A stretch of DNA of 64,000 bases from Flavobacteriaceae bacterium (GTDB taxonomy: Bacteria; Bacteroidota; Bacteroidia; Flavobacteriales; Flavobacteriaceae), in assembly GCA_024644725.1 (NCBI GenBank), contig JAHEHE010000004.1, positions 1-64,000 of the forward strand. Direction: 5' to 3'. Of this stretch, positions 7,778 to 19,675 are shown in pieces. The position numbers were made by a program, and so were the translations under genes. Under the pieces are notes generated by a model that made no database searches, was not told the DNA's origin, and saw only the letters and a program-made list of their open reading frames with translations. Each line of letters opens with the position of its first letter. The stretch's first letter is position 1.

Positions 7778-8854
7778 TTAGAACCTAACTTGAACTTGGG
7801 CTAAGAATCTGTCGTTATCTTCATTGATAACTGTTTCGATATTCGCTTGATAGTTCAATTGAACTCTGACATTTTTACTGAAGAAATAGTTCAGGCCAAT
7901 TGTCATCCTTTCGCTGTAGGCGTTCGGAATGTCCTTCACGTCGAGATCCTGATCGAAGAATTCATACTTGAACACAGGCTGCAAATTCCACTTGGTATCA
8001 TACCAGATCATACCATAGGCACCAGCGCGTCGCTCACCCAATTCCAGAGGTTCCGCACCACAACCCGCATCGGCAGCGCGGTTGTATGCACCTTCGTCTT
8101 GAATGTATTCTCCCTGAATATGGAGATTGTTGAATTCCATGAGGATTTCTCCACCCCAGGTGGTTCGGTCGGAATCATTGTCATTGGGTACAGGGTATCC
8201 ATAGCGGAAGCTCGCACCGATGTGCATCCAGTCAAAGAGCCTATAGGTGGCGCGACCAACGAAATCCTTCTTGTTGTTTTCGTCCTTGGTCAACAATCCA
8301 CTACCGTTCATAATGGCCACGGCGTAGCTAAAACGGGTCGAATGCATGTTCCCTCCGAGCATCATGAGTCCATAGTCACGTTGGGGCACAACCAGCTGAT
8401 CCGAGACAATAGCCCGGTCAATGGTCACCAGGTTGTGACACCCGGTCGCATAGACTTCCAGTCCGAAGGGTTGCTTGTAGGACCCGATGGAGAATGACGC
8501 ATATTCAAAGCGATCCCAGGTGATAAAGGCATCCATGAGATACGCTCCCGGGGTTTGGCCTCCTATGAAGGGGCTCGCTTCAAGCATGAAATAGTACGTG
8601 AAGTCATCCAAAACCCGTCCTCGCACACCAATTCGCGCCCTGCGGAACGTAAAGGTGCTTTCACCAGGATCCCCTTGGGTGTATTGGTATTCTGGTTGGA
8701 GGTATCCGAAAATCTTTATTTTCGGCTGGGCCAACGTATCGTTGGGATCATCCACATCACAACCTTGTGCAAACATGGAGGTCGTGAAGATCAACGTTGC
8801 TGCGAGCAGCAAAATCCATTCAATTTTTTTCATCTCTACAATTTTGAATTTCAT
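7778..8854 (-). CDS. OprO/OprP-type outer-membrane porin
   Basis: The protein has 358 residues from ATG 8854, or 351 from the inner ATG 8833, which gives a cleaner signal peptide (MKKIEWILLLAATLIFTTSM, then FAQ). The mature part is rich in alternating beta-strands, for example KIKIFGYLQPEYQYTQG and TFTFRRARIGVRG near the start. It ends in AQVQVRF with the terminal Phe needed for outer-membrane insertion. This matches phosphate-selective-type porins of the OprO/OprP family. ATG 8854 directly abuts the stop of the rhodanese lipoprotein gene, so translation is probably coupled. As the last gene of a sulfur operon it might pass a sulfur oxyanion, which is inferred from context only. Confidence 0.82.
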   Translation of the reverse strand: MKFKIVEMKKIEWILLLAATLIFTTSMFAQGCDVDDPNDTLAQPKIKIFGYLQPEYQYTQGDPGESTFTFRRARIGVRGRVLDDFTYYFMLEASPFIGGQTPGAYLMDAFITWDRFEYASFSIGSYKQPFGLEVYATGCHNLVTIDRAIVSDQLVVPQRDYGLMMLGGNMHSTRFSYAVAIMNGSGLLTKDENNKKDFVGRATYRLFDWMHIGASFRYGYPVPNDNDSDRTTWGGEILMEFNNLHIQGEYIQDEGAYNRAADAGCGAEPLELGERRAGAYGMIWYDTKWNLQPVFKYEFFDQDLDVKDIPNAYSERMTIGLNYFFSKNVRVQLNYQANIETVINEDNDRFLAQVQVRF

Positions 8855-9868
8855 TTATTGGACCAAAGGAAGATTCTTAGGTACAGATGACCCTACTCCC
8901 CATTGATTGGTGCTCCAGGCTTGATTTGAATGGTAGATACCATTCATTCCAAACGTCATGCTATACGCGTCGTAGCCCAAAACTCGCAGCCAGGCCGTCA
9001 TAACCGCAGATGTCTGTCCTGTGTAGCAGTATGTGATGACCTTGGCATTCTCACTGGAGTTCAGAGCCTTGTAGCCATCTCCCTCAAGTTTTAGCTCTTC
9101 CTTGATCCTGAAGGCATCTTTGATATGACCGAATCCACCGTAGTCTGTAGCAGAGAAATAGTTGTTTACGAAATAATTCGATGGGTTGGAAAGGACATCT
9201 CCTCCCTTCGCCGTTTTGAATCCCGCAGCCACAGCATCTTCAACACGTTTTCTAAGAATTTCAGATCCGTCTTGAGACAAGCTCGAGATGTCAGGATCGT
9301 CAAAAATGGTATTTGATGGTGCGCCATCGTAGGACCAATTGGAGTTATCCTTGGCTGCATCCCCCGTATTTCCGTTCCATGGCCCTGCAGTTTCAGGGTT
9401 CCAGCCGGACATACCCCATTTGAGGGACTGAGCTGTTGGGTATCCATACATGCGCAAGAGCGAAACAGCATAGCAAGCGGTTTGTCCTGTATAACACACG
9501 ACGAGAATTTGCTTGGGTGCACTGGCGGCTTCGTCCAGTATATTGGAAAACGGAACATTTTTTGCTCCCGCAATATGACCTTTTGCGAAGTCACCGGCTG
9601 CGCGAATGTCAAGAATCGTGTACTTGTTCAAAAACGCGTCCAAATCGGCCTCGGCAGGTGCGCCGGCGACAAACTTAGTTCCGCCATCGGGTCCTGAAAG
9701 AATATAGCCGATGTCCAGGTTGTTGGTCAACATATAGTCTTTGAGTGTCTCAAACGTCGGTTTGAAGATTGGGTTTTCAGCGATGATATCGTCTCCCCTG
9801 TCACAGGAAGTCAAAAAGAATCCTGAAAAAAACAGAAGGCCGATCAGATATAAACTAAACCTTTTCAT
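8855..9868 (-). CDS. Double-rhodanese lipoprotein
   Basis: This periplasmic or surface lipoprotein probably transfers sulfane sulfur. ATG 9868 gives a lipoprotein signal ending in LTSC within MKRFSLYLIGLLFFSGFF...; an upstream in-frame ATG at 9907 would add 13 residues and is less likely. Two rhodanese domains follow. Domain 1 has DIRAAGDFAKGHI and active loop CYTGQTA, and domain 2 has GHIKDA and CYTGQTS, so both keep the catalytic Cys. The neighbour at 9940 is a paralogue with matching WGMS motifs. It is second in the operon and precedes the porin. Substrate, such as thiosulfate or persulfide, cannot be decided from sequence. Confidence 0.88.
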   Translation of the reverse strand: MKRFSLYLIGLLFFSGFFLTSCDRGDDIIAENPIFKPTFETLKDYMLTNNLDIGYILSGPDGGTKFVAGAPAEADLDAFLNKYTILDIRAAGDFAKGHIAGAKNVPFSNILDEAASAPKQILVVCYTGQTACYAVSLLRMYGYPTAQSLKWGMSGWNPETAGPWNGNTGDAAKDNSNWSYDGAPSNTIFDDPDISSLSQDGSEILRKRVEDAVAAGFKTAKGGDVLSNPSNYFVNNYFSATDYGGFGHIKDAFRIKEELKLEGDGYKALNSSENAKVITYCYTGQTSAVMTAWLRVLGYDAYSMTFGMNGIYHSNQAWSTNQWGVGSSVPKNLPLVQ

Positions 9869-9939
9869 AATTTGAATTTTTGAATTGAATGTGAGTTTTA
9901 TTTTCATTGTTTTTATTGATGTTCAAAAGGGTAGTGCCA

Positions 9940-10965
9940 CTATTCGACAACCGGGTACATATTGACTTCTTTCTTGGTGAAAGCTCCCCATCCATTGTCT
10001 TTTAAAGTCTTGTGCATGTAGCTGTTGGCGCCGTAGGCGATGTTTGAAGCATCATAGCCCAATACATCTAGGTAGGCAACGACATAGGCCGTTTCCTGAC
10101 CGGTTGTGCCGTTGACTACAATCTTTTTGTCAGCAGGAAGAGTCATGAGATCTGCAGAAGAGGTCAATGATTCGTTGGGTTGATATTGAACTGCATTTGG
10201 GATGTGTCCCTTTTCGTAACGATCCAGTCTATTGTAATCCACGATGTAATAGTTGTCGGGATTGGCAAATACGTCGGAAGATTTGGCTATCGACTCCTTA
10301 TAAGGCGTTGCAAACAATTCTTCCAGGCGGGCGCGGAGTATGGCTTCGGCTTGTGTTTTTCCTGTGCTCAAAGCTGGCAAGCTTCCTTTGGGGCCTTTTT
10401 CATTCCCCGCAGTCACCACCTTGTCGGCAAAATCGTCCTTAGTGTTTTTCAACCAGGAATTCTCGGCAAAGTCGACTCTCCAGGAGCTCATTCCCCAGTT
10501 CATACTGTAAACATTGTCATAGCCGGCAATTCTCAAAAGACTTGAAAAGTAAGCAGCTGATTGGCCTGAATAGCATACCAATACAATCTTGTCAAAATCG
10601 GCAGGAGTGATGCTGTTCTCGAAATAGGTCAGAAGATCAGTTGACTTGACATTGCTGGCATTTTTGATGTGGCCGTATTCGAACCAGCTGTCGCTGCGAA
10701 TGTCAATGATGTGATACTTTTCGTTTTTAAGGTTTTTTTTCACCTCATCTGCTGGTACTATGGCAGGTGCGGCATCTGTGTTCACAAAATTGCGATTGCC
10801 TTCCAAAAACTCCAGAAGAATCTCTGTTTCCCCTGTTGAGAGAGGAGGTTCAGAATTGTTGTCTTTCGCAATGGAAAATCCGCTGAGTGCAAATGAAAGC
10901 GGAAGAACAAAAGCAAGTAGATAAAGAATTCGCTTTTTCATGGTTTCTAAGATTTTATGATTCAA
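9940..10965 (-). CDS. Secreted double-rhodanese protein, second domain lacking the catalytic Cys
   Basis: A signal peptide (MKKRILYLLAFVLPLSFALS from the inner ATG 10941; ATG 10965 adds eight residues) exports this protein, which has no lipobox. Domain 1 has HIIDIRSDSWFEYGHI and the intact loop CYSGQSA. In domain 2 the corresponding loop reads NGTTGQET, so the catalytic Cys is replaced and this half is probably not a sulfurtransferase. It is a paralogue of the lipoprotein downstream (both have WGMSxW after domain 1 and an NxWG segment near the C-terminus). It is the first gene of the operon and is preceded by the palindrome at 11022-11033. One active and one inactive domain is a common rhodanese layout, but here it is the second half that has lost the Cys. 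Confidence 0.87.
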   Translation of the reverse strand: MNHKILETMKKRILYLLAFVLPLSFALSGFSIAKDNNSEPPLSTGETEILLEFLEGNRNFVNTDAAPAIVPADEVKKNLKNEKYHIIDIRSDSWFEYGHIKNASNVKSTDLLTYFENSITPADFDKIVLVCYSGQSAAYFSSLLRIAGYDNVYSMNWGMSSWRVDFAENSWLKNTKDDFADKVVTAGNEKGPKGSLPALSTGKTQAEAILRARLEELFATPYKESIAKSSDVFANPDNYYIVDYNRLDRYEKGHIPNAVQYQPNESLTSSADLMTLPADKKIVVNGTTGQETAYVVAYLDVLGYDASNIAYGANSYMHKTLKDNGWGAFTKKEVNMYPVVE

Positions 10966-11111: not shown

Positions 11112-11148
11112 ATTTCAAAAAAAAATACCCCGCGCGGACGCGGGGTAT
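11112..11148 (-). terminator. Intrinsic terminator of the psr-like operon
   Basis: A perfect 10-bp GC-rich stem (11125-11134 with 11139-11148) with tetraloop CGGA is followed on the minus strand by ten T (complement of 11115-11124 region). It sits 37 bases after the last rhodanese gene and ends the operon starting at 17516. Confidence 0.9.
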
Positions 11149-11185
11149 CTATCAAAACAATCAACTAAATACTCAGGAGGTCAAA

Positions 11186-11812
11186 TCAACAGCCTCCCTC
11201 GGGCATTTTCTTTTTCTTTTTCTTCTTGGGAGCAACTTTTTTAGGAGGTGGCGGCGCCACTGTTCTTTTAGCAGCCTGTTTTTTGGATTCATTTACTTTT
11301 TTTACCGAAGTTTCTATGAACCCGGCTATATCCGGGCTGGGTTTCTCGACTTCGGAATAGGTCGTTATGAGTTTGTCCTTCTCGAAGTAGTTCTCACTTT
11401 CCAGAATTTTGACCGGTCCCATGTCGAGCTGACATAGCATCATAAAAACAGGAAGGGTTTCATTGGGACTCCTTCCGTATAGCAGGATAATCTTGCCTTT
11501 TTCGAGGTATTCGTTCAATTGGGTGGTGTGGTCTTTGCTCAACAGCTCAGGGGCATATATGTTGATCGCGTCCGGCAGATGCCCTTTCTCATAATCAAAT
11601 GGATTTCTCACATCGACCAACACATAGGCTTCTGTTTTAAGCCCTTGAGGGGAGACCAGGTAGTCGGTTGTGTCCATTTTCATCAATGTTGTGGACGTGT
11701 TCTGCGCATAGAGAAAGCTGGGCTTTTTGTAGTTGAGCAGGGCAATCAATATCAGCAGGATGGACAGCACCGCTGCGATCGATATCCGTTTTGTTTTTTC
11801 TAGTTCTTTCAT
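11186..11812 (-). CDS. Membrane-anchored rhodanese-like protein with C-terminal PEGGC arm
   Basis: The 208-residue protein has one N-terminal helix (residues 9-26, ISIAAVLSILLILIALL), so the rest is probably periplasmic. A rhodanese fold follows with YVLVDVRNPFDYEKGHLP, but the active loop reads LLYGRSPNET and has no Cys. The tail (from about residue 178) is a flexible Ala/Pro/Lys segment ending in seven Lys and MPEGGC, leaving a Cys as the last residue. The gene upstream ends in the same KKKKMPEGGC sequence encoded by different codons. A Gly-Gly-Cys on a flexible arm resembles the SoxY carrier arm. A sulfur-carrier role is inference. It is the last gene of the psr-like operon. Confidence 0.8.
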   Translation of the reverse strand: MKELEKTKRISIAAVLSILLILIALLNYKKPSFLYAQNTSTTLMKMDTTDYLVSPQGLKTEAYVLVDVRNPFDYEKGHLPDAINIYAPELLSKDHTTQLNEYLEKGKIILLYGRSPNETLPVFMMLCQLDMGPVKILESENYFEKDKLITTYSEVEKPSPDIAGFIETSVKKVNESKKQAAKRTVAPPPPKKVAPKKKKKKKMPEGGC

Positions 11813-11855
11813 GAGTTTCAGAATTTTTTTGGGTGGCTGCGAAGTGTTTGTGCTA

Positions 11856-12518
11856 TCAGCATCCGCCTTCTGGCATTTTTTTCTTCTTCTTCACCGGAGT
11901 CACAGTTTTGGGCTTTGGACTGGGCTTTGGGGGAGGTGGGGTTGCTTTCACCTCATCCTCGTAGGCCACGCCGAAGAACATACTCGCTGATTTTCTGAAG
12001 GAATAAAGCTCATGCTCGCTGTTCGGCATCTTTTCATCCGGTTTCGGAGGATTGATTACCGAATTGAACCAATTTTGTATGCCTCCCTGAAGCACGCGCA
12101 AATTTTTATATCCCAACCTGTTGCAAAGAATCCAGGCCTGATCCGCATAAAAGTTGTCATCTGAGCAAAGTACGATCTCGTAGGCGGCCTGATCGAGATA
12201 TCCTTCATTTTCTTCATCCAGGATATCTTCAAGGGGTATATTGATCGCTCCCGGAATGGAATAGGATTCGAATCGTACCGAATCCCGAACATCAATCACA
12301 AGAATGGACGGGTCTCCCGAAATGATTTTGTGCGCCAACTCGTCGGAAGAGATATAGCGCTCAGGGCTGATCGAATTGGCCAGCAACGCTTCGGGGTCTA
12401 TGCCTTCGTGTTTTTCATAGGTAGGAAGAAAGAGAAGTCCTCCAGCCAGAAGTATCAGGACCACAGCGAGAATCTTGTAGCTGTGGGTGAGGAGTTTTGC
12501 TAATTTTCTGTTGTACAT
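11856..12518 (-). CDS. Membrane-anchored rhodanese protein with C-terminal PEGGC arm
   Basis: The 220-residue protein has an N-terminal transmembrane helix (residues 14-32, YKILAVVLILLAGGLLFLP) and a periplasmic single rhodanese domain. ILVIDVRDSVRFESYSIPGA leads to the active loop VLCSDDNF, so the catalytic Cys is present. After a linker, a Pro/Lys-rich arm (PPPPKPSPKPK) ends in KKKKKMPEGGC with a terminal Cys. The downstream neighbour carries the same tail. Plausibly the active rhodanese loads sulfur onto its own or its partner's terminal Cys, but this is a hypothesis. It lies 15 bases after the YeeE gene in the psr-like operon. Confidence 0.83.
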   Translation of the reverse strand: MYNRKLAKLLTHSYKILAVVLILLAGGLLFLPTYEKHEGIDPEALLANSISPERYISSDELAHKIISGDPSILVIDVRDSVRFESYSIPGAINIPLEDILDEENEGYLDQAAYEIVLCSDDNFYADQAWILCNRLGYKNLRVLQGGIQNWFNSVINPPKPDEKMPNSEHELYSFRKSASMFFGVAYEDEVKATPPPPKPSPKPKTVTPVKKKKKMPEGGC

Positions 12519-12533
12519 GATACAGGGAATTAA

Positions 12534-13124
12534 TTAATAAACCACTTTTTTGACCCGTTTTCTGACGACATCTGCGATTATGAAGGAGAGCACTGCCAGC
12601 AAGGTGAAACCGAAAACAAAAACATAGGGAGAGATCTCAAAGGCGTCCATAATGGTCATGTATCCCATGAACCCACCGTCGTACCAGGGTTCGAATCGGG
12701 AGAACAATTCTGAGAACAGGAAGATCCCGATCAGAATTCCCCCGACATAAACCAGGGCATCGATCTTGCCGATGGCAGCTGCGCAAATGCTGGTTCCCGG
12801 GCAAAATCCACCCGTGATAAAACCCAGCCCCATGATTCCGCCCCCGATCAGGGCCCCTTTCAAATAGGTCGGGTGGACGTATAGCGCTCCGAGATCCAGG
12901 TAACCCATGTAATCCAAGTAGAGAATTCCTATCGAGGAAACCAGGGCTGCGGTAAAGAAAACTTTGAGCACGGCAAAGTCATAGCCGTAGAACACACCCG
13001 CAAGCTTTCGCGACGAGGAGAATCCCGAGCTTTCCAGGATGTACCCGAAGACGATGCCGATGACAAGGGCGAAAATGCTGTTCCATTCAGCAGGTATTAT
13101 TTCATTTGGAATCAATGGTCCCAT
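12534..13124 (-). CDS. YeeE/YedE-family transporter half
   Basis: This integral membrane protein of 196 residues and about five helices belongs to the YeeE/YedE (DUF395) family, members of which import thiosulfate or other sulfur species. The signature GFITGGFCPGTS, with a Cys in the conserved hairpin, is near residue 105. Full-length YeeE proteins are about twice as long with two such repeats. Here each repeat is a separate gene, the other being immediately upstream at 13149, so a heterodimeric transporter is likely. The two lie between the NrfD subunit and the rhodanese genes, consistent with moving sulfur between periplasm and cytoplasm. Confidence 0.88.
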   Translation of the reverse strand: MGPLIPNEIIPAEWNSIFALVIGIVFGYILESSGFSSSRKLAGVFYGYDFAVLKVFFTAALVSSIGILYLDYMGYLDLGALYVHPTYLKGALIGGGIMGLGFITGGFCPGTSICAAAIGKIDALVYVGGILIGIFLFSELFSRFEPWYDGGFMGYMTIMDAFEISPYVFVFGFTLLAVLSFIIADVVRKRVKKVVY

Positions 13125-13148: not shown

Positions 13149-13679
13149 TTATATCCAGTTTTTTCTAAAAAAATAAGCGAACAAGAAGGCGGTGCCGAAA
13201 ATGGCGAGCATCGTGATAAAGCCACCGACAGAAAGGACAGCTATCCCGCTTAAAGCCGCCCCGCTGGTGCATCCTCTCGCAATTTGCGCTCCGAGGCCGA
13301 ATAGCACTCCACCGATAAGAGCAAATATCAAACGTCTTTTTACGGTTATCTTTGGGGAATGCTGAACCTTAAATCCCAATCGGCCGTTGAGGCCTCCTGA
13401 GAGAAAAGCGCCCAGGATGATTCCCAGGGTCTCGAACACCAGCCAATTGTTGAGTGGCGATTCTTCATCACTGAGGAATTTGCTGTAATAGGCGTTCTCG
13501 TGGGCGTGCTCGGTATCCGCCTTGTCTACGATCGCCACGACGCCGCTTTTGAGTCCTCCCGTGGCTCCGAGTCCGCGACCGGTTATATAAAAGGTGAAGA
13601 TGATCAATATCCCCAGGAGGAACCCTCCGAAGTAAGGATTCCAGTAGACGCGCATTCTTTTTTCTTCTTTCTGTGCCAT
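13149..13679 (-). CDS. YeeE/YedE-family transporter half
   Basis: This 176-residue membrane protein is the second YeeE/YedE repeat. The signature ARGCTSGAALSG, with the conserved Cys, is near residue 137. An N-terminal helix (residues 15-33) is followed by a long soluble insert (residues about 45-75) that is His/Asp/Glu-rich (DKADTEHAHENAYY), unlike the other half. The gene follows the NrfD-like gene by 73 bases and precedes the 12534-13124 half by 24 bases. Direction of transport and substrate (thiosulfate, sulfite or sulfane sulfur) are not visible. Confidence 0.87.
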   Translation of the reverse strand: MAQKEEKRMRVYWNPYFGGFLLGILIIFTFYITGRGLGATGGLKSGVVAIVDKADTEHAHENAYYSKFLSDEESPLNNWLVFETLGIILGAFLSGGLNGRLGFKVQHSPKITVKRRLIFALIGGVLFGLGAQIARGCTSGAALSGIAVLSVGGFITMLAIFGTAFLFAYFFRKNWI

Positions 13680-13752: not shown

Positions 13753-14694
13753 TTAGTACAGGTATCGGGTTATCTGCCCGGCTTCGACCATCACAAACCG
13801 GAAAATCAGTCCTCCCAAAAGAATCAGCATGGCAGGCACCGCGGCAGGAACCTTTTTTCCCAGGATCTCCATGAGCTCAATACTGGCAGGGACAAGGAGT
13901 CCCAGAATGATCACGAAACCGAAGAACATCAGGGTGAATTCTCCTCCGACCAACAACTGCATCGCCTCCAGCTGAACCTGTGAACCGGCATGCATTCCCA
14001 TGATCATATGAACGATAAGACCCAGTTCCAGTACAATAAGGGCCAGATCGATTCGGGTGAAGAGGTGTCTCTCAGCTGAGGATTTCGCCAGAAGAATGAT
14101 GGTTGCTGCCCCGGTTGAAAGTCCGGAAGTCAGGAACAGGGGGCCGAGAATGGCGTTGTTCCATAACGGTCTGGCGTTAAAAGCGGACAGTAGTATTCCG
14201 GTGTAAACACCAAGTATAATGGAAAGAGGAATCAGGGCGTAGGCCATTTGCTTGCGGTAGGGAACCAGGAATTCTTCGATTTTGACCAGAAAACCGATTC
14301 GTTTGGAAGAATTCTTCACAAATTCAGAGTAGTAGGTCAATACCCACAGGAAGGTGAGGGGAGTGGTGATCAAAAGGACCCAGGCACCCCATGACATGGG
14401 GGACTCCAAACGAATCGTGGTGTAAAGCTGGTAGGTGTAAAGAGGGTGAGTCAGGTCATAGACCAGGGCCAACAATCCGAGGGAAAGGGCCACCGGAGGA
14501 ACAAGGGTGGCGTATTTGACCGCACCCACGTACTCTTTGTCTTTGCCCAGCACCGTGATTACACTGCTGAAAAATATGATTCCGGCAGCGAGCCCGCCCA
14601 GGAAGAGGTAGACCGAAATCGGCCAGTGCCAAATCTGTAGATAGGGATCTATATTGGGGATGTCTCTTCCACTTATGAATAATTCTTCTTGCAT
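13753..14694 (-). CDS. NrfD/PsrC-type membrane subunit of molybdoenzyme
   Basis: This 313-residue protein has about eight to nine transmembrane helices and belongs to the NrfD/PsrC family. It exchanges electrons between the quinone pool and the periplasmic [4Fe-4S] subunit. The N-terminal motif WHWPISVYLFLGGLAAG is characteristic. The haem-binding pattern of NarI/DmsC-type subunits is not evident. The gene follows the ferredoxin subunit by 54 bases, giving the order catalytic, electron-transfer, membrane subunit seen in polysulfide, thiosulfate and tetrathionate reductases and in SoeABC sulfite dehydrogenase. Sequence alone does not show whether the complex runs as reductase or dehydrogenase. 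Confidence 0.92.
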   Translation of the reverse strand: MQEELFISGRDIPNIDPYLQIWHWPISVYLFLGGLAAGIIFFSSVITVLGKDKEYVGAVKYATLVPPVALSLGLLALVYDLTHPLYTYQLYTTIRLESPMSWGAWVLLITTPLTFLWVLTYYSEFVKNSSKRIGFLVKIEEFLVPYRKQMAYALIPLSIILGVYTGILLSAFNARPLWNNAILGPLFLTSGLSTGAATIILLAKSSAERHLFTRIDLALIVLELGLIVHMIMGMHAGSQVQLEAMQLLVGGEFTLMFFGFVIILGLLVPASIELMEILGKKVPAAVPAMLILLGGLIFRFVMVEAGQITRYLY

Positions 14695-14748: not shown

Positions 14749-15282
14749 TCAAATCAAATAATAGACATGAGGTTTGGTGCCCGCTTCGGGAGCCAGGGTT
14801 TTGAATTTTCTGTTTCTCAACAAGTTTGACACTTCGCTGTTGGGATCGTCGAGGTCACCGAAGTACATGCAATTCGTCGGGCAAACCGAAACACAGGCGG
14901 GTGACTGACCTTTTTCCACGCGGTGGTGACAAAAAGTGCACTTGTCGACGTAGCCTTCGGGGTGTTGAAATCTGGCGTCATAAGGGCAGGATTCGATGCA
15001 TGCCCCGCATCCGATGCATTCTTCTGGAGTCACCAGGACGATTCCTCCGTCTATGATATGACTCGCTCCAGTAGGGCAGCAACGCACGCAAGGCGCATTT
15101 TCGCAATGATTACACCTTTCGGATTTGAGTTCCAGCTCGACGTTCGGGTATGATCCGTCGACTACCTCGGTGATCCAGTCCCGGCAGTATCCGACAGGAA
15201 CATTGTTTTCTGTTTGACACGCTACCACACAATCGCTACATCCTACGCACTTTAGGGTGTCTATGACCATTGCATATCTCAT
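14749..15282 (-). CDS. Four-cluster ferredoxin subunit (PsrB/PhsB/DmsB type)
   Basis: This 177-residue electron-transfer subunit carries electrons between the molybdopterin subunit and the NrfD subunit. Four Cys groups are visible: CVGCSDCVVAC near residues 12-22, CNHCENAPCVRCC near 57-69, CIGCGACIESC near 89-99 and CTFCHHR...CVSVC near 115-135, which together bind four [4Fe-4S] clusters. It has no signal peptide and would be co-exported with the Tat-dependent catalytic subunit. Its ATG overlaps the psrA-like stop in an ATGA tetranucleotide. Confidence 0.95.
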   Translation of the reverse strand: MRYAMVIDTLKCVGCSDCVVACQTENNVPVGYCRDWITEVVDGSYPNVELELKSERCNHCENAPCVRCCPTGASHIIDGGIVLVTPEECIGCGACIESCPYDARFQHPEGYVDKCTFCHHRVEKGQSPACVSVCPTNCMYFGDLDDPNSEVSNLLRNRKFKTLAPEAGTKPHVYYLI

Positions 15283-17516
15283 ATCTCTATAGGTTTATGT
15301 GGATTTTCACTTAGAATGCTCACGAAGTTTCCTCGCATTCCCGTACCGCCCATAATTGGGTCTACAGCAACGCTGCTGATCATCTGGGTATCATTTATCC
15401 CCTTGCCCGCAGCCCGTGACAGTTTTTTGTTCGTGTGTCCGAACCCGTGAACCATATAGACGGAGTCCCAACGTATGCGCTCTGTGACTCTTACTTTGAT
15501 GGAGAAGTCAGAAATCACCCCATCCTGGTTCTTCAGCCATACCTCCTGACCGTTTCTCAGGTCGAGAATACGCGCCACCTTAGGATTCACCCAAAGTCGA
15601 TTCTCGTCTTTAAGGTCGTTGAGGTTCGGGTTGTTCGCGGTGCGGCTGAACGTATGCATGGGCGCCCGTCCGTAGTTCAATCGGTAGTAACCTGCGGGTG
15701 GCTCGGGATGTTTTTTGTAGACGGGCATAGGGTCAAAGCCGAGGTCCTTCAACTCCTCGGAGTAGAGTTCGATCTTACCACTTGACGTGTAAAACTCATG
15801 TGATTCGCCTTTTTCGAGATACATGGAACCCGATTTCCTTGGAAACATCTTCACTCCTGATCTTTCGAGCTCGGTGAGCGAGGTTCCCATCTGCTCAAGC
15901 TGCCATTTGATGACATCCTCGTAGTCCTCGTAATCAAAATAGTCTGAGAGACCCAGGCGTTCCCCAATCTGTTTGGCTACCCACCAACCCGGTTTCGAAT
16001 CGAATCTAGGTTTTGCTGCGGGCAGGCGCACGGCTACAGAAGGCTCTCGATTGGTCGCAGAGCGAATTCCATCAACGCGTTCCAGATACGTGGCCTCCGG
16101 TAAAACGACATCTGCGTATCCGGTGACGTCCATGGGCATAGTGTCCATCACGACCATGAAATCTATGGACTCTATGGCCTCTTCCAGAAGTTTCTTGTTC
16201 GGGATGGATTTGGTTATGTTTGTTCCTGCCACCATCCAGGCCCTGACCGGGTATGGATTGTCAGGATTCGGGATCGAAGCCTTGATCACCTCCGTGGTTA
16301 TTCCCATTTGGGCCAATGGATAGGCCTTGCCAAGCTCCTTCCAACCCCATTTGTGTTCCGGGTATTCGGGATGCGGGTACTTCGGAACTTTGATGCTCTC
16401 CTTAAAGTAGAATCCACCCCGGCGACCCCAGGAGCCCAATAGCGCGTTCAATAGGGCGATTGATCTTGAACGCTGCGTGTCATCGCCGTACCATGTAACG
16501 TGGCGACCTGGGTGGACGATAACGGCAGGCGCGGCATTGGCCATTTCCCTGGCGGTTCTTCGTATATCTTGAGGTTTGATCTTTGTGATGCCATAGGCCC
16601 ATTCCGGGGTGAAGGTTCTCACATGATCCTTGAGTTGTTTGAATCCGAGAGCGTATTTGTCGATGTACTCCTTGTCGTACAGGTCTTCATAGATCAAGAC
16701 GTGCATCCAAGACAAGAGGAGTGCGATATCGGTTGCCGGCTTTATGGGCAACCAGTATTTTGATTTGCTCGCGGCGGTAGAAAAGCGGGGGTCAACGGTT
16801 ATGATGGTCGCCCCCTGGTCGATGGCATCAGACATTTCCTGGACCTGGGTATTGTGCATGTTCTCGCCGATATGTGAGCCGATGAGAACGAGACAGCGCG
16901 TGTCCCGGATGTCTGTGGGTTCAGGAGACCCAACCCAGCTTCCGAAGGTCGCGGCAAACCCGGTTTCCCTGGGTCCTCGGCATTGCGCATAGGCGGGTTC
17001 GGCAATGGTGTCCGACCCCATGGCCTTGAAAAGGTGTTCCAGGTGTTTTCCGGGGGATCCGTGCTTGAGCAGGGCTATCGATTCAGGGCCATGAGCCTGA
17101 CTGATTTCTGTGAATTTTTTGGCGATTAAATCGAGGGCCTCTTCCCAGGTAGCTTCCCGGAAAGTCTGTTCACCGTCGATCTCGGTACGTATCAAGGGCT
17201 TCTTCAAACGGTCGTTGTCGCTGTACATCCCAACGCCACCGGTTCCTCTTGGGCACAAACGGCCATAGCAATGAGGGTCGATTTCATTGCCGATGAGTTT
17301 CACCACATCGCCTTTATCATCCGTATAGGCCCAGGCGGCACACTTCCAAAAGCAAACCTCGCAATAGGTGGCGGTGCGTGTCAAGGGAACGGAACTCGCT
17401 TTGACCCCCGTGTCGTCAAAACTGACCGGATAGAGCCCGAGACCTGTTGTTCCCATTGCGACGCCTCCGGCGCCGAGAGCTGATATTCTAATAAAAGACC
17501 TTCTCGATTTGTCCAT
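15279..17516 (-). CDS. Tat-exported molybdopterin oxidoreductase (PsrA/PhsA/TtrA/SoeA type)
   Basis: The 745-residue catalytic subunit belongs to the DMSO-reductase superfamily and would act in the periplasm on a sulfur compound. The twin-arginine signal SRRSFIRI is at residues 5-12. The [4Fe-4S] motif is Cys52, Cys55, Cys59 and Cys88 (C-x2-C-x3-C-x27-C). Cys179, in AYAQCRGPRETGF, is the candidate molybdenum ligand, as in polysulfide and thiosulfate reductases. The C-terminal cofactor-binding domain has MHTFSRTANNPN. It leads an operon with ferredoxin, NrfD, two YeeE halves and two rhodaneses, which points to polysulfide, thiosulfate or sulfite. Which one, and the direction, is not resolved. 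The operator and -7 element upstream are listed separately. Confidence 0.9.
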   Translation of the reverse strand: MDKSRRSFIRISALGAGGVAMGTTGLGLYPVSFDDTGVKASSVPLTRTATYCEVCFWKCAAWAYTDDKGDVVKLIGNEIDPHCYGRLCPRGTGGVGMYSDNDRLKKPLIRTEIDGEQTFREATWEEALDLIAKKFTEISQAHGPESIALLKHGSPGKHLEHLFKAMGSDTIAEPAYAQCRGPRETGFAATFGSWVGSPEPTDIRDTRCLVLIGSHIGENMHNTQVQEMSDAIDQGATIITVDPRFSTAASKSKYWLPIKPATDIALLLSWMHVLIYEDLYDKEYIDKYALGFKQLKDHVRTFTPEWAYGITKIKPQDIRRTAREMANAAPAVIVHPGRHVTWYGDDTQRSRSIALLNALLGSWGRRGGFYFKESIKVPKYPHPEYPEHKWGWKELGKAYPLAQMGITTEVIKASIPNPDNPYPVRAWMVAGTNITKSIPNKKLLEEAIESIDFMVVMDTMPMDVTGYADVVLPEATYLERVDGIRSATNREPSVAVRLPAAKPRFDSKPGWWVAKQIGERLGLSDYFDYEDYEDVIKWQLEQMGTSLTELERSGVKMFPRKSGSMYLEKGESHEFYTSSGKIELYSEELKDLGFDPMPVYKKHPEPPAGYYRLNYGRAPMHTFSRTANNPNLNDLKDENRLWVNPKVARILDLRNGQEVWLKNQDGVISDFSIKVRVTERIRWDSVYMVHGFGHTNKKLSRAAGKGINDTQMISSVAVDPIMGGTGMRGNFVSILSENPHKPIEI

Positions 17517-17773: not shown

Positions 17774-19675
17774 TTGATTTTTTTACCTTCCATAGTAACC
17801 TTGAGATCATCGACCGTCACAATACTAGTGGCCGTGACCTTTGCATTCTTGATACAATCTTGCGGAGAAGGGCCGAAGCAAAGCTCCCCTGATTCCTATA
17901 CGGAGCTTGAGGGTGAGTTGGAGACTGGAAAAGAATCCTGCCTGGTATGTCACAACCAGTTGAAAGGCTATTCGGAGTATCACAATCCTGAAAACATAGG
18001 GTGTGCGGTCTGTCATTTGGGTCAACCTGGGGAGTTTGACAAGGAAGCGGCCCATGCGTCCATGATCTTGATACCCGGAAATCTGGCCGACGCGGCCCAA
18101 ACCTGTGGGACCTGTCACCCCAATGAACTGCAGAAGGTAGAAACATCTCTCATGACGACCAATTCCGGACTGGTGGCCGTCGACAAGTATGTTTTTGACG
18201 AGGCCCATACGCCCGACGGTCAGTACGACATAAGAAAAATAGGTCACAGTGCGGCAGATGAGCATTTGCGGAATCTGTGTGCCAATTGCCACCTGGGAGC
18301 CCAAAAGTCAACGTACGGACCGATCACCGAATTGACCCGAGGAGGGGGGTGCAATGCCTGTCATCTCAACTATTCGAAGTCAGCTGAAGAAGAATTGACC
18401 CAATACCTGTCTTCAGGTAAACAGGTGCTTCCGAGTTTTCATCCGGCGACAGACATACAGGTCGGTGACACCCACTGTTTTGGATGTCACAGTCGTTCCA
18501 GTCGAATTTCTACCAATTACATGGGCTGGCAGGAGACGCTGGAAAGCAGGCAGGATGTCAGTGGAGACCCTGGCTACAGGGCCTTTCAGGATGGACGTGT
18601 TTACAAGAGCCAGCCGGAAGACGTGCACCACGCTTCGGGCATGCTTTGCGTGGATTGCCATGGAGTTCGGGATGTGATGGGCGACGGCCGGACCTACACC
18701 CATGAAGAGGATGCTGTTCACCTGGCTTGCAATGATTGTCACTACAAAGAAAAGCCAAACACGATTGATTTTGAGAGCCTGGACAGGGAATCCATTCTCG
18801 TATTCTCTCACCGTGGATTTGAACACCTCGACAAGCCCATGCTCCGGCGTGCCAAAGATAGCATTGCACTTGTCAACACATATGTGGAAGAAGAAAAGGC
18901 CTTTTTGATTGGAAAGTCAGACAAAATAGTCAGGAATATAGTGCCTCAACCCGAAGTTTGCGCCCGCGATGCCGCCCACAAAGACTTGACTTGTTCGAGC
19001 TGCCACAGTCAGTGGGCCCCAAGGTGCATTGGTTGTCACAACAGTTTTGAAAAAAATGATCCTATGGCATATGATCTCCTGGAGAAAAAGGTTGCCGAGT
19101 CGGGCTGGGTGGAACACGTCTTTGAATTTTCAGCAGATCTTCCTGCGCTGGGCGTCCGGGAAAGAGAGGGAAAGCGTCATATAGAACCAGCCGTTCCTGG
19201 AATGATACTGACGATCGATCACGACAGCTTTGAGGGAGACAGCCTGACGGGAACAGCCTTCAAACGCCTTTATGCGCCCAACTCGCCACACACCATTGGA
19301 AAAGAATCGCGTACCTGTGTTTCGTGCCACGCCAATCCTGCGACACTTGGCTATGGCAAAGGAAACCTTGAGTTGGATGTTTCCCAAAAGGAAACCGAAT
19401 GGACCTTTACGCCGGAATACGCGGACAACCCCAATGACGGACTGCCCGAAGATGCCTGGATTCCGTTTTTGGAACCGCCAAAGGCTGAGGTCCTATCCAC
19501 GCGCAGCGACTTCCGTCCGTTTGGCCTGGATGAGCAAAAAAGCATCCTGACGGTAGGAGCCTGTCTCAAGTGTCATGCCGCAGACTCTCCCTTGATGCGA
19601 AGGTCCTTGTCTTCAGGATTAAATCCTTTACTTTTGGAGAGGAGTGCAAAATGTGTGATTCCCACATTTGACTGA
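17774..19675 (+). CDS. Dodecahaem c-type cytochrome lipoprotein
   Basis: This extracytoplasmic multihaem electron carrier has twelve CxxCH motifs (CLVCH, CAVCH, CGTCH, CANCH, CNACH, CFGCH, CVDCH, CNDCH, CSSCH, CIGCH, CVSCH, CLKCH). A lipoprotein signal ends in LIQSC. No ATG is available: TTG 17774 gives 633 residues, and TTG 17801 gives a more typical signal (MRSSTVTILVAVTFAFLIQS, then C) and may be the true start. Haems 1-10 are fairly dense, then a spacer of roughly 100 residues precedes haem 11 and another precedes haem 12. I do not recognise it as a named family. It is divergent from the psr-like operon and shares the operator region, so it may be its redox partner or an independent reductase. 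Confidence 0.85.
   Translation: MIFLPSIVTLRSSTVTILVAVTFAFLIQSCGEGPKQSSPDSYTELEGELETGKESCLVCHNQLKGYSEYHNPENIGCAVCHLGQPGEFDKEAAHASMILIPGNLADAAQTCGTCHPNELQKVETSLMTTNSGLVAVDKYVFDEAHTPDGQYDIRKIGHSAADEHLRNLCANCHLGAQKSTYGPITELTRGGGCNACHLNYSKSAEEELTQYLSSGKQVLPSFHPATDIQVGDTHCFGCHSRSSRISTNYMGWQETLESRQDVSGDPGYRAFQDGRVYKSQPEDVHHASGMLCVDCHGVRDVMGDGRTYTHEEDAVHLACNDCHYKEKPNTIDFESLDRESILVFSHRGFEHLDKPMLRRAKDSIALVNTYVEEEKAFLIGKSDKIVRNIVPQPEVCARDAAHKDLTCSSCHSQWAPRCIGCHNSFEKNDPMAYDLLEKKVAESGWVEHVFEFSADLPALGVREREGKRHIEPAVPGMILTIDHDSFEGDSLTGTAFKRLYAPNSPHTIGKESRTCVSCHANPATLGYGKGNLELDVSQKETEWTFTPEYADNPNDGLPEDAWIPFLEPPKAEVLSTRSDFRPFGLDEQKSILTVGACLKCHAADSPLMRRSLSSGLNPLLLERSAKCVIPTFD

Follow-up and report, generated by a model that had tools for sequence, protein, structure and literature searches.

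Paired pseudo-rhodaneses with a C-terminal cysteine arm, candidate periplasmic sulfur carriers linked to split YeeE transporters and to PsrABC or octahaem enzymes in Bacteroidota

The window analysed here is the whole stretch of 64,000 nucleotides at the start of contig JAHEHE010000004.1, from a Flavobacteriaceae bacterium (assembly GCA_024644725.1). It contains a set of genes in the order psrA-psrB-psrC-yeeE half 1-yeeE half 2-B-A, where A and B each encode a small protein with a single rhodanese domain (Table 1). The unit closes with a strong intrinsic terminator just behind gene A. A Crp-type regulator is found downstream, along with two double rhodaneses and a porin, whilst a divergent multihaem cytochrome gene lies upstream. 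The second domain of the double rhodanese closest to A has lost its Cys (VVNGTTGQE).

Table 1. Features of the psr-yeeE-B-A region (positions are those of the window)
Feature	Position	Strand	Description
Porin_O_P family outer-membrane porin	7778..8854	-	
Double-rhodanese lipoprotein	8855..9907	-	Two intact Cys loops; terminal Cys absent; candidate sulfur donor
Double rhodanese	9940..10965	-	Domain 1 keeps Cys (VLVCYSGQS); terminal Cys absent; candidate sulfur donor
Intrinsic terminator	11123..11150	-	12-pair stem and T run; directly after gene A
Pseudo-rhodanese A	11186..11812	-	208 aa; Pfam Rhodanese E 4e-10; N-in membrane helix (about 2-27), rhodanese fold, Gly at catalytic position (LYGRSPN), Lys/Pro arm, predicted disordered, ending KKKKKKKMPEGGC
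A tail codons	11186..11221	-	Include terminal Cys (TGT) and stop
Pseudo-rhodanese B	11856..12518	-	220 aa; Pfam Rhodanese E 8e-15; N-in membrane helix (4-29), rhodanese fold, Ser119 at catalytic position, arm, predicted disordered, ending KKKKKMPEGGC
B tail codons	11856..11891	-	Include terminal Cys (TGC) and stop
Split YeeE half 2	12534..13124	-	Pfam Sulf_transp/DUF6691; GG(F/Y)CPGTS motif
Split YeeE half 1	13149..13679	-	Pfam Sulf_transp; RGCTSG motif
PsrC/NrfD membrane subunit	13753..14694	-	Pfam NrfD E 1e-46
PsrB 4Fe-4S subunit	14749..15282	-	
PsrA/PhsA-type molybdopterin subunit	15279..17516	-	Twin-arginine leader RRSFIRIS
Divergent multihaem cytochrome c, ExtM-like	17774..19675	+	Upstream of the psr-yeeE-B-A unit

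The genes adjoining A and B have the features of a Psr/Phs system, namely three PsrABC subunits, a TAT leader and kinship to the Thermus Psr enzyme. The best relative of PsrA in the structural database is PDB 2vpw (Thermus, 640 bits); against the NCBIfam PhsA model it scores 469 bits, under the cut-off of 694, and a Phs or Psr substrate cannot be assigned by sequence. The two YeeE halves carry the Sulf_transp domain and the conserved Cys motifs of the YeeE/TsuA family. The upstream cytochrome scores 227 bits against NCBIfam ExtM, under the cut-off of 800, and its orthologue in the genome G191 has 12 CXXCH motifs. ExtM-like cytochromes also adjoin the Psr-type clusters of G191, G132, G352 and G192.

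A and B have an N-terminal hydrophobic helix, a rhodanese domain, a Pro/Lys-rich arm and the shared ending KKKKKMPEGGC, as described in the initial annotation of the locus. The codons for PEGGC differ as it reported, being CCC GAG GGA GGC TGT in one gene and CCA GAA GGC GGA TGC in the other, and over the last nine identical residues seven of the nine codons differ. This tail pattern occurs at only two places in the organism's whole genome, A and B, with no match for the reversed control. In a scan of 395 genomes, true matches were restricted to G000 and G191, the remainder being out of frame, and neither the organism's own genome nor the 395 genomes of the phylum gave an unrelated protein with the tail. 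As a defining motif, MPEGGC proved too narrow, since it is the flavobacterial spelling only. Judged from the aligned proteins, what the family has in common is (G/E)GC at the end of an arm that is in most cases basic.

The position of the rhodanese catalytic Cys was established by alignment to GlpE, to the double rhodaneses of the window and to PDB 6mxv. It had been suggested that one of the two proteins lacks this residue (YGRSPN) whilst the other keeps it (CSDDNF). The former holds for A, which has Gly at the catalytic position. The latter does not hold for B: its Cys118 aligns with the preceding Tyr/Phe, one residue ahead of the catalytic position, which is occupied by Ser119. Cys118 is unconserved among 18 close homologues, and the catalytic residue is Ser in every close homologue. 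Thus, both domains are without a catalytic Cys. A and B have the rhodanese fold but fail to provide the Cys of the active-site loop, and neither is an active single rhodanese. The sole invariant Cys in the A family, and likewise in the B family, is that of the tail.

Across 107 aligned rows, the catalytic column contains Ser (45), Gly (34), Ala (21), Cys (4), Asp (1), Asn (1) and a gap (1). Of the four Cys rows, two represent intact double rhodaneses, which bear the tail as well. Cys is retained at the catalytic position at loci L067 and L069. At L082 (12031-13149) and L081 (7025-8146), an intact double rhodanese has an SGGCG tail like that of the two pseudo-rhodaneses in its cluster; the arm can therefore also sit on an active enzyme.

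AlphaFold2 models of A and B, made as single chains from shallow alignments of nine sequences, show a confident rhodanese core, preceded by an N-terminal helix and followed by an arm of low confidence. In B, pLDDT is 84-94 for residues 51-180 and 45-59 for the tail; in A, it is about 90 for the core and below 50 for the arm. The arms are thus predicted to be disordered. Foldseek searches with the two models matched rhodaneses (E about 5e-7 for B). The positive-inside N-terminus implies a periplasmic location, as do related proteins in which the pseudo-rhodanese is fused to YeeE half 2; in these, the fusion and the count of membrane segments fix the rhodanese on the periplasmic side.

The closest relatives of A and B are found in Flavobacteriaceae (Lutibacter, Polaribacter sp. 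Hel1_85 and Algibacter), which have both genes, with both tails, in the same cluster. The pair is kept in at least 12 genomes of the same genus. A search of 21 same-genus genomes and order-level relatives gave 13 matches at about 50-64% identity; the same-genus matches have both genes within the stretch examined, and every one is tailed. Two order-level relatives have three rhodaneses ending KKAVSGGCG, and an intact double rhodanese is among the three. The initial annotation had named tailless homologues, or a terminal Cys that is variable or absent, as grounds for abandoning its proposal. Neither was found in the related genomes, and every member of the family has the tail Cys.

A profile search with B of 395 Bacteroidota genomes, a sample of this phylum rather than an exhaustive set, gave strong matches in about 60 genomes. 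The matched proteins are pseudo-rhodaneses that adjoin a split YeeE pair or are fused to its half 2. All 103 distinct sequences have a Cys within the last two residues, in a set that excludes three short, weakly scoring ordinary rhodaneses without a terminal Cys. The endings are GGC (67), EGC (18), GGCG (8), MGC (4) and others (6, with one or two each of GGCS, GGCA, GGCT, DGC and FQC), and the 20 residues preceding the Cys have a median net charge of +5. The basic arm is not essential, however, since G352 has an acidic spacer (KVKVEVEEGGC). As a control, the remaining rhodaneses of four genomes, most of which are Cys-active, all lack the tail.

The reciprocal relationship also holds. Half 2 of the split YeeE type linked to A and B occurs at 67 places (E<1e-26), with a tailed partner in every case traced. 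Of the places that at first seemed partnerless, those in G279, G346 and G192 do have a tailed partner, in G362 and G327 the partner ends GGLCS, and in G350 its frame is shifted (see below). Weaker half 2 matches (G237 C94 and C34, G392, G319 C149, and G183) proved to be other YeeE types and are tailless. At two further loci (L144 and L145), a different split YeeE pair lies beside a protein with MBL-fold and double-rhodanese domains, resembling the persulfide dioxygenase Blh, with no GC tail.

Of 25 A/B pairs, each from a single genome, 16 have matching tails, where shuffling predicts 2.8. This agreement is suggestive only, because the figure ignores phylogeny and is inflated by shared descent. 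The matching tails are mostly written with different synonymous codons. Its extreme C-terminal position and its occurrence on paralogues would suit a tail acting as a sorting, processing or lipidation signal. Such a role seems extremely improbable, as the tail is carried by A and B only in their own genome and no other coding tail of this pattern was found in the 395 genomes. Moreover, an N-terminal membrane helix or a YeeE fusion is already there, and residues beyond the Cys are tolerated.

Comparison of 55 longer loci revealed that two unrelated sulfur enzymes alternate as neighbours of the tailed proteins. Thirty loci encode fused proteins, and each of these loci also encodes an octahaem cytochrome from the tetrathionate reductase family (OTR); one such cytochrome was scored at 560 bits against TIGR04315. 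A cytochrome b561 lies alongside in nearly all 30. The arrangement OTR cytochrome/cytochrome b561/YeeE half 1/half 2-pseudo-rhodanese fusion is conserved at L137, L138, L083 and about 27 more loci from many Bacteroidota. PsrABC accompanies separate, unfused tailed proteins at 15 loci, of which five also have an ExtM-like cytochrome. No PsrA match was obtained in 16 OTR-type genomes at E<=1e-60, whilst four Psr-type control genomes did match, and PsrABC was therefore rejected as the defining partner. YeeE was in turn rejected as an absolute partner, because the 99% complete genome G352 encodes PsrABC together with both tailed proteins, and YeeE half 1 was not found in it. Thus, the arm appears to work with either redox enzyme and, in at least one instance, without YeeE.

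These observations bear on whether the tail might instead gate or regulate the split YeeE channel, its Cys reacting with YeeE cysteines or plugging the pore without any carrier role. Such a function would account for the near-obligatory linkage of the tailed protein to split YeeE and for their fusion, and the YeeE halves retain the RGCTSG and GG(F/Y)CPGTS motifs. We nevertheless consider it unlikely, since G352 has no YeeE half 1, psrC directly adjoins gene B in G020, and in the flavobacterial and f2 clusters each YeeE is accompanied by two or three tailed proteins.

How sulfur from outside the cell is handed over to YeeE-family transporters and periplasmic sulfur reductases is poorly understood (PMC11582611), and a general proposal has been made that periplasmic sulfurtransferases pass sulfur to YeeE (PMC12142623). 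A and B are probably membrane-tethered periplasmic sulfur carriers in which the reactive Cys has been relocated to a C-terminal arm. This reading builds on the gene structure, the loss of the catalytic Cys, the universal tail Cys, the modelled disorder of the arm, the synteny with YeeE, PsrABC and OTR, and the YeeE fusion; from these we infer persulfide chemistry, the direction of flow and sulfur as the chalcogen. The rhodanese domain, having lost its catalytic Cys, would serve as a docking or dimerisation scaffold, and the reactive thiol would be carried on the flexible, usually basic arm ending (G/E)GC. Thiosulfate or polysulfide may supply the terminal Cys with sulfane sulfur or a thiosulfonate group, whether directly or through active rhodaneses such as the two neighbouring double rhodaneses. 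The arm would then hand sulfur to the periplasmic active site of PsrABC (or of the OTR octahaem cytochrome in other lineages) and, alternatively or additionally, to the split YeeE pore.

The initial annotation had likened the arm to that of SoxY, the subunit of the SoxYZ carrier with a C-terminal GGCGG swinging arm, and supposed it to be served by the Psr complex. The first part is strengthened by the universal tail Cys, the lost catalytic Cys, the predicted disorder of the arm and the distant relatives ending SGGCG; the second could apply to some lineages only, PsrABC not being a universal partner. Like SoxY, A and B would be periplasmic with a flexible, Gly-flanked C-terminal Cys, their relatives end SGGCG, GGCS or GGCA, and one carrier fold would serve several enzymes. 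Unlike SoxY, they have a rhodanese fold, a membrane anchor and a Lys/Arg arm, no SoxZ-like partner was seen, and they are linked to YeeE, Psr or OTR rather than to SoxXAB/SoxCD. The SoxY domain PF13501 is absent from A and B, for which the Pfam scan gave Rhodanese only, and a search without a positive control found no SoxY in five genomes. A and B may therefore work like SoxY, yet they are not SoxY.

A second point of comparison is Sud of Wolinella succinogenes, a periplasmic rhodanese-fold polysulfide-sulfur transferase that feeds a Psr-type reductase and carries sulfur on the active-site Cys of its rhodanese domain. A and B share with Sud the rhodanese fold, the implied periplasmic location and, at about 15 loci only, the linkage to psrABC. 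They differ in that the rhodanese active-site Cys is missing and the thiol is on the C-terminal arm. DsrC and LbpA also have a conserved Cys near the C-terminus, although these proteins are cytoplasmic and of unrelated folds. In LbpA this Cys is often beside a Gly (PMC6067878).

Within the YeeE/YedE family, which includes TsuA, SoxT and PmpA/PmpB, SoxT1A has been proposed to receive sulfur from SoxYZ (PMC11582611). The split halves described here are similar in having the YeeE Cys motifs and in adjoining, or being fused to, a putative carrier. In contrast to TsuA, SoxT and PmpAB, their partner is a tailed pseudo-rhodanese; other PmpAB-type YeeE pairs of the same phylum are without one. TusA (PF01206), which usually partners TsuA in the cytoplasm, was not found in four of the five genomes tested (G000, G191, G352 and G378), whereas it was present in G132 and in 11 control genomes, and a plain TsuA/TsuB-type import route is therefore disfavoured in those four. 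Three of these four genomes do have YeeE.

The neighbourhood also raises the question of whether the arm carries sulfur or another chalcogen. The clustering of rhodaneses with a Porin_O_P porin and an ExtM-like multihaem cytochrome resembles the ext cluster of Geobacter (ExtH, ExtI, ExtM), in which ExtI affects selenite and tellurite reduction (PMC5877670). Similarly, the respiratory selenite reductase of Bacillus selenitireducens (Srr), a member of the Psr family, is reported to have rhodanese-domain partners (PMC12481199). The cargo could accordingly be a selenium or tellurium species, in the service of selenite or tellurite respiration. This seems quite unlikely, as the likeness to ExtM falls far under the cut-off (227 of 800 bits), PsrA is nearest to Thermus Psr, and the octahaem cytochrome of OTR-type loci belongs to the tetrathionate reductase family. 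Neither PsrABC nor YeeE has been described in the ext cluster.

Returning to the sulfur carrier reading, the terminal Cys would on that reading be loaded and unloaded. A lone Cys with a Gly hinge would equally suit a structural or redox role, as a metal or haem ligand, in an intermolecular disulfide, or in thiol-disulfide exchange with an oxidoreductase. We regard such roles as very unlikely: neither the A nor the B family has another conserved ligand, the Cys is either the last residue or followed by G, S, A or T, and sulfur enzymes are the partners in nearly all traced clusters.

The A/B-type family thus provides a concrete carrier candidate, with one reactive residue, a transporter fusion and two alternative redox partners. 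It would also be a case in which a catalytic residue has left the pocket of an enzyme for a mobile arm, a change apparently fixed across the phylum. Automatic annotation hides the family under the name 'rhodanese-like domain-containing protein', and no earlier account of a rhodanese tailed in this way was found in the mainly open-access literature searched.

The family extends beyond Bacteroidota. A plasmid of Gemmatirosa (Gemmatimonadota) carries the same kind of unit, its pseudo-rhodanese having Ser in the catalytic column and ending RLRRRGC. It was the only relative found in the plasmid search, and none of the tailed pseudo-rhodanese was found in viral contigs; a YeeE pair on a plasmid of Fusobacteria is without a tailed pseudo-rhodanese. 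On balance, we favour the existence of a widespread, undescribed group of swinging-arm sulfur carriers derived from dead rhodaneses, which would form a periplasmic link to split YeeE and to the interchangeable PsrABC and OTR enzymes in Bacteroidota and at least one member of Gemmatimonadota. In G350 (L142, 4448-5060), the pseudo-rhodanese frame is shifted, by what may be an assembly error or the mark of a recent pseudogene, and the downstream frame still encodes KKKKREGC followed by a stop codon.
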